DNA of 64,000 nt from a virus, in IMG/VR virus record IMGVR_UViG_3300042337_000070, positions 1 through 64,000 of that record; one strand, written 5' to 3'. Below the pieces are notes generated by a model that saw nothing but the letters and a program-made list of their open reading frames with translations, ran no database searches and was not told the DNA's origin. Positions 8,369 to 20,797 of the stretch are shown one piece after another; position 1 is the stretch's first letter, and each line of letters opens with the position of its first letter. The translations under genes were made by a program, and so were the position numbers.

Positions 8369-8449
8369 TGGACTCCACGACAGGATTCGAACCTGCATTT
8401 GCATCCAGTTACCTTACTCTTGATTCGTATTCAAGGTGGATACGTGGAG
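8369..8449 (-). tRNA. Atypical tRNA-like gene, possible D-armless Arg (ACG)
   Basis: The acceptor CTCCACG/CGTGGAG, T-arm GCAGG-TTCGAAT-CCTGT and encoded CCA are perfect, but no normal D-arm can be drawn. The only good anticodon-type hairpin is CTTGA-ATACGAA-TCAAG (anticodon ACG, loop close to E. coli tRNA-Arg ACG). It is preceded by just seven bases and followed by a 22-base linker whose TGGAT could pair with ATCCA before the hairpin. It is either a decayed tRNA or a rearranged, possibly functional one. Confidence 0.45.
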
Positions 8450-8452
8450 ATA

Positions 8453-10057: not shown

Positions 10058-10132
10058 TGGAAGCAGGTGTGGGAACTGCCCCCACTTCTATCGGCGTATG
10101 AAACCGATGAGATTCTAAACCTCCCACCTGCA
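10058..10132 (-). tRNA. tRNA-Met (CAT), initiator-like first-pair mismatch
   Basis: Loop TTCATAC, T-arm GTGGG-GGCAGTT-CCCAC. The acceptor has six good pairs but the first position is T-T unpaired. An unpaired 1-72 position is the hallmark of formyl-Met initiator tRNA, although the three G-C pairs of the initiator anticodon stem are not complete. T73, CCA. Confidence 0.78.
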
Positions 10133-10139
10133 ATAACTC

Positions 10140-10214
10140 TGGTGCTGATAGTTGGAAACGAACCAACCTTAGAGGCCTTATGAGAGCCTTTCGACACCTT
10201 GCCGACCTACCAGC
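10140..10214 (-). tRNA. tRNA with CAT anticodon (elongator Met or Ile2)
   Basis: Acceptor GCTGGTA/TATCAGC, anticodon stem AGGCT/GGCCT, loop CTCATAA, T-loop TTCGTTT, A73, CCA. Whether C34 becomes lysidine (reading AUA as Ile) cannot be decided by eye. Confidence 0.82.
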
Positions 10215-10555
10215 GAAAATTTGTTACTTCGTCAACGGACTATCACGACCGTTAGAGTTGGGCAGTTCCCTTCTACCACTTTACGCCCTAAACGTCACGC
10301 CCAGGAATCGAACCCGGTCAGGAACTGTTACACTCGTATCGCTTTCTACGTTTCGAACCGTTTGGACAGTCCGTTGACGAAGTAACAAACGGGAGTTACT
10401 ACCATCTCCCAAGCCCCTATTTCGTTGAGGCAGGTTACCTGGATAAGACGATGTGCTAAGACGAACATTTAGGTTGTCGCCACCTATATCCATACAGTAT
10501 AGCACACACATACTATATGGCAGACCAAGAGTATCCATCTCTCTTAGTCGTGTCT
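10215..10555 (-). ncRNA. About 340-nt highly structured region, candidate ornate ncRNA
   Basis: There is no tRNA or convincing gene here. A perfect 22-bp inverted repeat (10220-10241 and 10368-10389) closes a 126-nt loop. That loop holds a tRNA-like T-arm (CCGGG-TTCGATT-CCTGG) and crossing helices (CAGTTCC with GGAACTG; GACCG with CGGTC) that would form a pseudoknot. Upstream on the same strand are hairpins at 10490-10520 (11 bp) and ACTAAGAG/CTCTTGGT, plus GGGAG/CTCCC. Large structured RNAs next to phage tRNAs are known (GOLLD class), but I cannot match this to a family. Confidence 0.5.
10220..10389. repeat. Perfect 22-bp inverted repeat, 126-bp spacer
   Basis: Arms 10220-10241 and 10368-10389 are exact reverse complements. 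No other copy was noticed in the window. Confidence 0.95.
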
Positions 10556-10630
10556 TGGAGCGGGCGATCGGGATCGAACCGACGACCAACAGTTTGGAAG
10601 ACTGTGACTCTACCACTGAGTTACACCCGC
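10556..10630 (-). tRNA. tRNA-Gly (TCC)
   Basis: Acceptor GCGGGTG/CGCCCGC, loop CTTCCAA, T73, CCA. Confidence 0.93.
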
Positions 10631-10638
10631 ATTATATA

Positions 10639-10714
10639 TGGTGCCGGTAGCAGGAGTCGAACCCACGACCTGATGATTACGAATCAACTGCTCTACCAAC
10701 TGAGCTATACCGGC
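10639..10714 (-). tRNA. tRNA-Thr (CGT)
   Basis: Acceptor GCCGGTA/TACCGGC, loop TTCGTAA, one T-T mismatch in the anticodon stem, A73, CCA. Confidence 0.88.
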
Positions 10715-10969: not shown

Positions 10970-11164
10970 TTATGCTATCTTATACTCCTTATAACGTCTC
11001 TGCAACATTACTGATGCCTTGCCGTTATACTTCTGTTCCTTGAACGACTCATACTTGTCCCAAGCAGGACTAAAGGTGTTGAAAGTTCCCTTATACAGGA
11101 CCTTGTTGCCCTGAGACAACTCAACTACCCAGTATGATTCTCTCTTTACCATTTCTTCCTTCAT
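10970..11164 (-). CDS. Unknown 64-aa basic protein
   Basis: ATG at 11164 with GGAGAG eight bases upstream; a further in-frame ATG four codons later is possible. Lysine- and aromatic-rich (YWVVELSQGNKVLYKGTFNT), reminiscent of small beta-barrel phage proteins but not assigned. It sits in the tRNA cluster under its own sigma70 promoter. Confidence 0.65.
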   Translation of the reverse strand: MKEEMVKRESYWVVELSQGNKVLYKGTFNTFSPAWDKYESFKEQKYNGKASVMLQRRYKEYKIA

Positions 11165-11194
11165 TGCTCGCACTCTCCGAAGTTGATGTTGAGT

Positions 11195-11223
11195 ATTATA
11201 TAGTTCACAGAAACGAAAGTCAA
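11195..11223 (-). promoter_or_regulatory. Sigma70-type promoter (TTGACT-17-TATAAT)
   Basis: -35 at 11218-11223 and -10 at 11195-11200, driving the 64-aa gene and the tRNAs beyond it. Confidence 0.8.
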
Positions 11224-20723: not shown

Positions 20724-20797
20724 TGGCGCCCCTAGTGGGAATTGAACTCACATTGGTCGTTTTAGAGACGACTGCATTGCCATTATGCTATAGGGGC
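20724..20797 (-). tRNA. Suppressor-type tRNA, anticodon CTA (reads UAG)
   Basis: Complete 72-nt cloverleaf plus CCA: acceptor GCCCCTA/TAGGGGC, D-stem GCAT/ATGC, anticodon stem GTCGT/ACGAC with loop CTCTAAA, T-arm GTGAG-TTCAATT-CCCAC (one A-C mismatch), G73. The perfect five-bp stem fixes the anticodon as CTA, which pairs with amber UAG. G73 and the anticodon are one base from Gln(CTG) and one base from Trp(CCA), so Gln or Trp charging is most likely. It stands alone, about 9 kb from the main cluster, with a late-type box directly upstream. Confidence 0.85.

Follow-up and report, generated by a model that had tools for sequence, protein, structure and literature searches.

Bacteriophage T4 carries two small RNAs that are not tRNAs, species 1 and species 2 RNA, which have been known since the 1970s. 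Their genes, rnaC and rnaD, measure 139 and 119 nt as annotated and lie within the tRNA cluster, on the strand of the tRNAs and with a tRNA adjoining. Species 1 RNA is reportedly cut by RNase III in vitro. GOLLD is likewise located near phage tRNAs, and both GOLLD and ROOL are several times larger than either of the RNAs considered here. In RNase P, the T-box and the L1 stalk, two head-to-tail T-loop pentaloops bind the tRNA elbow. The passages of two papers that treat the T4 RNAs state that their function is unknown (PMC9697503, PMC3014915), and one of these papers describes their late expression (PMC9697503).

Here we describe a spacer in a phage tRNA cluster that very probably encodes two structured non-coding RNAs, A and B, each about 165-170 nt in length. 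In place and size, T4 rnaC and rnaD are the nearest known RNAs, being small non-tRNA RNAs with the same setting in the cluster of a T4-like phage, and rnaC shares with B a T-arm-like hairpin (CCGGG-TTCGAAT-CCCGG). However, the predicted folds of the T4 RNAs differ from those of A and B, and nhmmer profiles of A and B gave no match to the T4 locus that holds rnaC and rnaD (L196). Neither T4 RNA matched an Rfam family at threshold.

Locus and source phage

The window, meaning the whole 64-kb stretch of DNA analysed (64,000 nt), is part of a 107,942-base IMG/VR virus record. The DNA polymerase, UvsX recombinase and DnaB helicase of this record gave phage family matches, and the polymerase shares no more than about 50% identity with those of named phages, the top matches being cyanophages. 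By these matches the source is an uncultured T4-like phage. Positions 10215-10555 are exactly the spacer from tRNA-Gly(TCC) to tRNA-Met(CAT), and the surrounding run comprises 27 tRNA genes, every one on the minus strand (Table 1). Upstream on that strand there are promoter-like sites at 11223 and 11475, recognized by consensus match only. A small open frame (10970-11173, minus strand) lies between tRNA-Ile and tRNA-Cys, behind the strong promoter-like site, and its DNA is conserved among relatives, at 76% across 289 bases in L258.

Table 1. Features of the spacer and its flanks, in the predicted order of transcription (window positions).
Feature	Position	Strand	Evidence
Closest strong promoter-like site ahead of the tRNA run with A and B, TTGACT-17-TATAAT	11195..11223	-	consensus match alone
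tRNA-Gly(TCC), upstream of A	10556..10630	-	tRNA call and Rfam
RNA A, whole: five hairpins and two pseudoknots (predicted)	10390..10555	-	aligned by hand in 10 distinct copies
A hairpin H1, 7 bp, loop AGATGGATA	10525..10547	-	every pair present is formed
A hairpin H2, 11 bp in the window, of which 7 bp constant	10490..10520	-	alignment and RNAalifold
A pseudoknot strand K1a, in the H2 loop	10501-10506	-	
A hairpin H3, 4 bp	10471..10485	-	hand alignment
A pseudoknot strand K2a, in the H3 loop	10477-10480	-	
A pseudoknot strand K2b, pairs with the H3 loop	10461..10464	-	paired in 10/10 copies
A pseudoknot strand K1b, pairs with the H2 loop	10452..10457	-	10/10 copies
A hairpin H5, 4 bp, near-constant loop AACGAAATA	10414..10430	-	alignment and RNAalifold
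A hairpin H6, 5 bp, near-constant loop ATGGTAGTAA	10391..10410	-	alignment and RNAalifold
RNA B, whole, inside the inverted repeat (predicted)	10219..10389	-	8 distinct copies
B terminal helix P1, 5' strand, 22 bp here, 22-25 bp in relatives	10368..10389	-	
B constant hairpin ACG-GTTCGAAA-CGT	10348..10361	-	paired in 8/8, loop identical in 8/8
B helix P2, 5' strand	10338..10342	-	40/40 cells paired
B core, of type I both here and in L100	10250..10337	-	between-type identity at near-shuffled level
B T-arm-like hairpin in the core	10301..10317	-	TNCGA-loop hairpin readable in 6/8 copies
B helix P2, 3' strand	10245..10249	-	40/40 cells paired
B helix P1, 3' strand, ends 5 nt before tRNA-Met	10220..10241	-	
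tRNA-Met(CAT), downstream of B	10140..10214	-	ARAGORN; absent from Rfam gathering matches

A preliminary description had read this spacer as a structured RNA in a phage tRNA cluster, and predicted folding on the tRNA strand bears this out: the minus-strand spacer has a folding energy of -124.3 kcal/mol, compared with -95.6 +/- 5.3 in 100 dinucleotide shuffles (z -5.4, with 0 of 100 shuffles reaching it), and the plus strand folds more weakly (z -3.2). The perfect 22-bp inverted repeat that had been reported is present without mismatch over 22 nt, its arms being the two P1 strands, and a repeat tool extends it to 37 nt at 84%. Also as reported, the repeat encloses a T-arm-like hairpin (CCGGG-TTCGATT-CCTGG), and the adjacent 170 nt contains an 11-bp hairpin of CCATATAGTAT with ATACTGTATGG (10510-10520 with 10490-10500). 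The absence of a coding signal agrees with a reading-frame test of 17 copies of A and B (the L180 copy of A was left out), in which 15 have stops in all three forward frames and the remaining two, A of the window and A of L094, have one stop-free frame each. The crossing helices that had been placed inside the repeat did not hold up. The window sequence allows TGGGCG (10298-10303) to pair with TGCCCA (10259-10264) across CAGTTCC/GGAACTG, but L100, the sole copy of the same type, has no more than a weak alternative. The two crossing helices that do find support sit in the adjacent 170 nt, which is RNA A.

Homologues and their neighbours

A blastn search of the spacer against 50,697 named phage records returned nothing past tRNA or chance matches. 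Relatives of the polymerase in IMG/VR, many at 70-80% identity, carry tRNA clusters of like kind, and against these the first half of the spacer matched the spacer that follows tRNA-Gly in L094, L090, L087, L092 and L134, and the second half matched the tRNA-Cys/tRNA-Asn spacer in L100 and a place in the L128 record. Relatives of the helicase (about 55% identity, with tRNA clusters) gave short chance-like matches alone. The relatives found through DNA polymerase and UvsX were near enough for comparison. Further copies of A and B came from pattern scans. Leave-one-out nhmmer recovered all A copies, with E-values of 5.2e-22 or better in nine of ten and 5.6e-18 for L180, and all eight B copies at 2.6e-16 or better; the window copies scored 5.6e-28 (A) and 1.3e-19 (B). 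All copies come from related uncultured phages, and the changes counted below are not fully independent.

Several candidates were rejected. Loci found with a looser B pattern (L181, L186, L189, L190, L193 and L194) were judged false, having coding-like or G+C-rich surroundings, no inverted repeat that could be seen and profile scores of 7-21 bits. L261, L262 and L265, found with the A pattern, are likewise false (7.8 bits), and two loci with the B motif from a scan of genome contigs (L266 and L267) are chance matches that lack a tRNA and any match beyond the motif. The exact pattern of the T-arm part had no match in viral contigs. L188, in which the contig ends after the tRNA, could be a distant B and was left out (11.9 bits).

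Profiles run over 22.5-kb loci found A without B in L134 and B without A in L128, a split that blastn over the whole 169- and 174-kb records reproduced. In L180 both are present but apart: B follows a tRNA-Cys-like gene, and A comes about 600 nt later, before tRNA-Arg. Since relatives have one alone or both at a distance, A and B are, on this distribution, separate genes. In our neighbour table, every listed copy of A or B shares the strand of its flanking tRNAs. The A match starts 2-5 nt past the upstream tRNA in seven of the ten distinct copies and 14 nt past it in L259; the tabled distances of 620 nt in L134 and 83 nt in L180 span, in our reading of the sequence, a tRNA-Gly missed by ARAGORN. 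In six of eight copies (window, L100, L128, L172, L182 and L183), 0-6 nt separate the end of the B match from the following tRNA; in L100 and L182 the match starts 1 nt after the preceding tRNA. For B of L180 and of L198-L200 (the L140 type), the next ARAGORN tRNA is 83-119 nt off, so that packing from tRNA to tRNA is either not universal or a tRNA has been missed. Beside A, L094 (16337-16868) and L134 (19321-19850) have insertions with open frames that read as homing-endonuclease-like.

Structure of RNA A

From 5' to 3', the predicted layout of RNA A is H1, H2, H3, K2b, K1b, a linker with a CGTC motif, H5 and H6. We divided the ten distinct copies into segments by hand and verified every letter. 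Each pair of the seven helices is formed in 9-10 of the 10 copies, except for the outer pair of H1, which is absent in two. In a set of eight sequences, from which L205 and L212 were dropped as near copies of L092 and L094, 100% of cells are paired in H1, H2, K1, K2, H5 and H6, and 94% in H3. Two-sided changes in this set affect 6 of 7 pairs in H1, 3 of 7 in H2, all 6 in K1, 3 of 4 in H3, 3 of 4 in K2, 1 of 4 in H5 and 4 of 5 in H6, where the values for H1, H3 and K2 in part reflect fitting, because we aligned the copies to the structure by hand. H6 provides a compensatory switch, from GGGAG/CTCCC to GCCGG/CCGGC, in the L180 copy, which came from the profile search.

Because the strands of K1 were first placed by eye, we retested this pseudoknot with its strands at fixed distances from H2 and from the CGTC motif. 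At this register 45 of 48 cells pair, compared with 9-25 of 48 when the strands are slid by 1 to 4, and 3 of 2000 partner permutations matched 45 cells. A free search for K1 gave lengths just modestly over those of shuffled sequences (8.1 vs. 6.4), so that K1 draws its support from the fixed register. The corresponding search for K2 in the A copies gave lengths no greater than chance, so K2 is defined by its aligned positions alone. H5 and H6 are nearly invariant, and 252 and 40 of 2000 permutations, respectively, equalled their observed pairing. Unaided, RNAalifold on a MAFFT alignment found H2, H5, H6 and four pairs of H1. As judged by these comparisons, RNA A folds as described and is conserved as an RNA.

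Structure of RNA B

Related phages yielded eight distinct copies of B, and the covariation check that the preliminary description had suggested found clear compensatory changes in both RNAs. P1 is perfect over 22-25 bp in all eight copies, with many two-sided changes. L198-L200 were dropped as near copies of L140, and repeat loci of the same sequence were dropped from the counts. Over 20 aligned positions of P1, 160 of 160 cells are paired, compared with 41-71 of about 150 when the strands are slid, and none of 2000 permutations matched 160. For P2, the slid strands pair in 8-27 of 40 cells, and 2 of 2000 permutations reach the 40 observed. RNAalifold, again unaided, recovered P1, the constant hairpin and P2, with two-sided changes in 19 of 38 pairs. 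The frame of RNA B thus folded, by the pairing of its copies, is conserved as an RNA.

The core inside this frame is more variable. By eye, we assigned the cores to type I (window and L100), type II (L128, L172, L180 and L140) and type III (L182 and L183). Cores of different types share 53-65% identity, which is near the values for one shuffled pair (mean 53%, maximum 60%), and cores of one type 62-78%; frame parts are 60-100% identical. L172 (type II) and L183 (type III) occupy the same locus, with tRNA-Ser before and tRNA-Ala after. Their flanks are 81% and 77% identical, the 5' strand of P1 83% and the stretch from the hairpin to P2 100%, whereas their cores are 57% identical, which is the shuffled level. 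Similarly, L100 (type I) and L140 (type II) agree at 88% and 90% on the two sides of P1 and at 62% in the core. Because similar frames enclose unlike cores in both pairs, it appears that the frame of B stayed while the core was replaced or diverged beyond recognition. The type II pairs L128-L172, L128-L140 and L172-L140 are just 62-65% identical, so that a swap and fast divergence are not cleanly separable there. Two T-loop-like pentaloops can be read from the sequence in six of the eight copies, and no TNCGA-loop hairpin is readable in either type III core. Upstream of B, L172 and L183 have a promoter-like sequence (TTGACT-17-TAAGAT in L172), from which B would be the first RNA of the transcript.

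Comparison with known RNA families

As the preliminary description had anticipated, Rfam gave no match at threshold for A or B, either in the window or in the homologous copies examined. GOLLD and ROOL models gave none at gathering in the window and none at E<=5 in 10130-10640, and A and B, at about 170 nt each, are far smaller than these RNAs. RAGATH-36 (RF03104) aligned weakly with the 3' half of B, over the T-loop-like hairpin, but we rejected it as the identity of B: the score is 18.0 bits against a threshold of 70 (E 0.23), and the B copies of L128 and L182 gave no match. The T-arm-like hairpin and the place of B in a tRNA operon recall tRNA and tmRNA; however, there is no acceptor stem or CCA around this hairpin, and neither ARAGORN nor Rfam at gathering called a tRNA or tmRNA within 10215-10555. 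A match to the tRNA-like mascRNA model was at chance level (14.4 bits vs. 42.5). In a limited search of open papers we recognized no description of such RNAs. To judge from these searches, A and B are two new families of structured RNA of the phage tRNA-cluster kind.

Other elements of the tRNA clusters

It seems that an assortment of small RNAs is present in these clusters. Structured-looking, recurrent spacers that are not tRNAs were seen in L115 (10613-10740), L116 (13564-13660 and 13738-13810), L128 (18045-18165), L100 (11570-11683) and L180 (3857-3970). A short recurrent hairpin, GGGG-CCGACGTTAAATGT-CCCC followed by ACCA, occurs in L134 (20109-20148), L090 (near 18235) and L092 (near 9375) and resembles a bare acceptor minihelix with CCA. 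In the window, ARAGORN and Rfam both missed a tRNA-like gene at 8369-8452 (minus strand) that has a 7-bp acceptor stem, CCA, a T-arm and an anticodon-like arm with the loop ATACGAA, with the strands of a D-stem (TATCC and GGAT) flanking the anticodon arm, one on each side. Counting copies in relatives, this gene has ten distinct sequences. It follows A in several relatives, in a place where L180 has an ordinary tRNA-Arg(ACG), and is possibly a tRNA-Arg with a rearranged D-arm. ARAGORN also called a tRNA-Pyl with anticodon CTA in the window (20724-20797, minus strand) and in L127, L130, L158 and L159, which is probably an amber-reading suppressor tRNA of these phages.

Discussion

We read A and B, with a probability of roughly 0.8, as two genes for small, structured non-coding RNAs in a T4-like phage, carried within a polycistronic tRNA precursor. 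Transcription from the promoter-like sites upstream on the minus strand would give one precursor containing the tRNAs, A and B. The 5' end of each released RNA would then be made by 3' processing of the preceding tRNA, and its 3' end by RNase P acting at the following tRNA. We consider such excision by the processing of flanking tRNAs to be probable, though by no means assured; in some relatives B takes up nearly every base between one tRNA and the next. At the A/B junction of the window an extra cut would be needed, for which the perfect helix of B is a candidate double-strand-nuclease site. This 22-25 bp end helix would also clamp the ends of B against exonucleases, and may itself be an RNase III-type cut site. 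Once released, A and B may, like T4 species 1 and 2 RNA, remain as stable RNAs that act in trans, a role suggested by the conservation of their folds. The exchange of the core suggests a role in recognition, in which the constant frame of B would serve as a scaffold and the recognition part would be altered by host selection; tRNA, the ribosome or a defence protein are possible partners. That the RNAs act in trans on the host is a guess, and we hold it as a tentative one.

Alternatively, A and B might act only in cis, folding and cutting the tRNA precursor, stopping tRNAs from misfolding and marking the cut sites, with the released RNA having no job of its own. A long perfect helix is a classic substrate for double-strand cutting, and the helix of B, together with the location of both elements in spacers where they abut tRNA ends, would fit such a device. 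A spacer device, however, would not need two conserved pseudoknots, nor near-constant loops such as AACGAAATA and ATGGTAGTAA in A or GTTCGAAA in B, and both elements are absent from many other spacers of these clusters. We therefore regard a purely cis-acting function as unlikely. The double-pseudoknot layout and constant loops of A also recall small ribozymes, but no Rfam ribozyme family matches A or B even weakly, which makes a self-cleaving catalytic A improbable.

The preliminary description favoured a single ornate RNA of about 340 nt, comparable to GOLLD. In the window A and B do adjoin without a gap, and its claim of a structured, unmatched RNA stands; its claim of one RNA does not, as two independent RNAs are found apart in relatives, each of them also without the other, and GOLLD gave no match. 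One large RNA is accordingly a very remote prospect. Equally far-fetched is the proposal that B is a small piece of mobile DNA, bounded by its perfect repeats as terminal inverted repeats rather than closed by an RNA helix. Covariation in P1 alone could come from a DNA palindrome, and B does occupy several different tRNA spacers (Gly/Met, Cys/Asn, Ser/Ala and Met/Lys). However, the constant hairpin and P2 covary too, the orientation of B to the tRNAs is always the same, the arms vary between loci with no constant end sequence, and the flanks inspected have no target duplications or direct repeats at the edges of B. Two non-coding RNA genes within a tRNA precursor remains our preferred reading.

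Within this reading, B might be a phage-made tRNA-elbow binder, in which the loop GTTCGAAA and the T-arm-like loop of the core interdigitate. The UUCGA-type pentaloops of six of the eight copies would do so as in RNase P, the T-box and the L1 stalk, and the core would tune the choice of partner, be it a tRNA of host or phage, a site on the ribosome or a defence enzyme that cuts tRNA. We think this doubtful, and decidedly less likely than a trans-acting role in general.

T4 species 1 and 2 RNA have so far stood almost alone, and A and B would be two further families of tRNA-cluster RNA. The diversity of their copies supports the folds by covariation and offers a comparative handle on the job of such RNAs, since they have conserved loops that can be mutated, cores that can be exchanged and a pattern suggesting selection on recognition. 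If B should prove to be an elbow binder, it would be a fourth independent RNA class with the T-loop motif and would point to an arms race within the tRNA operon.
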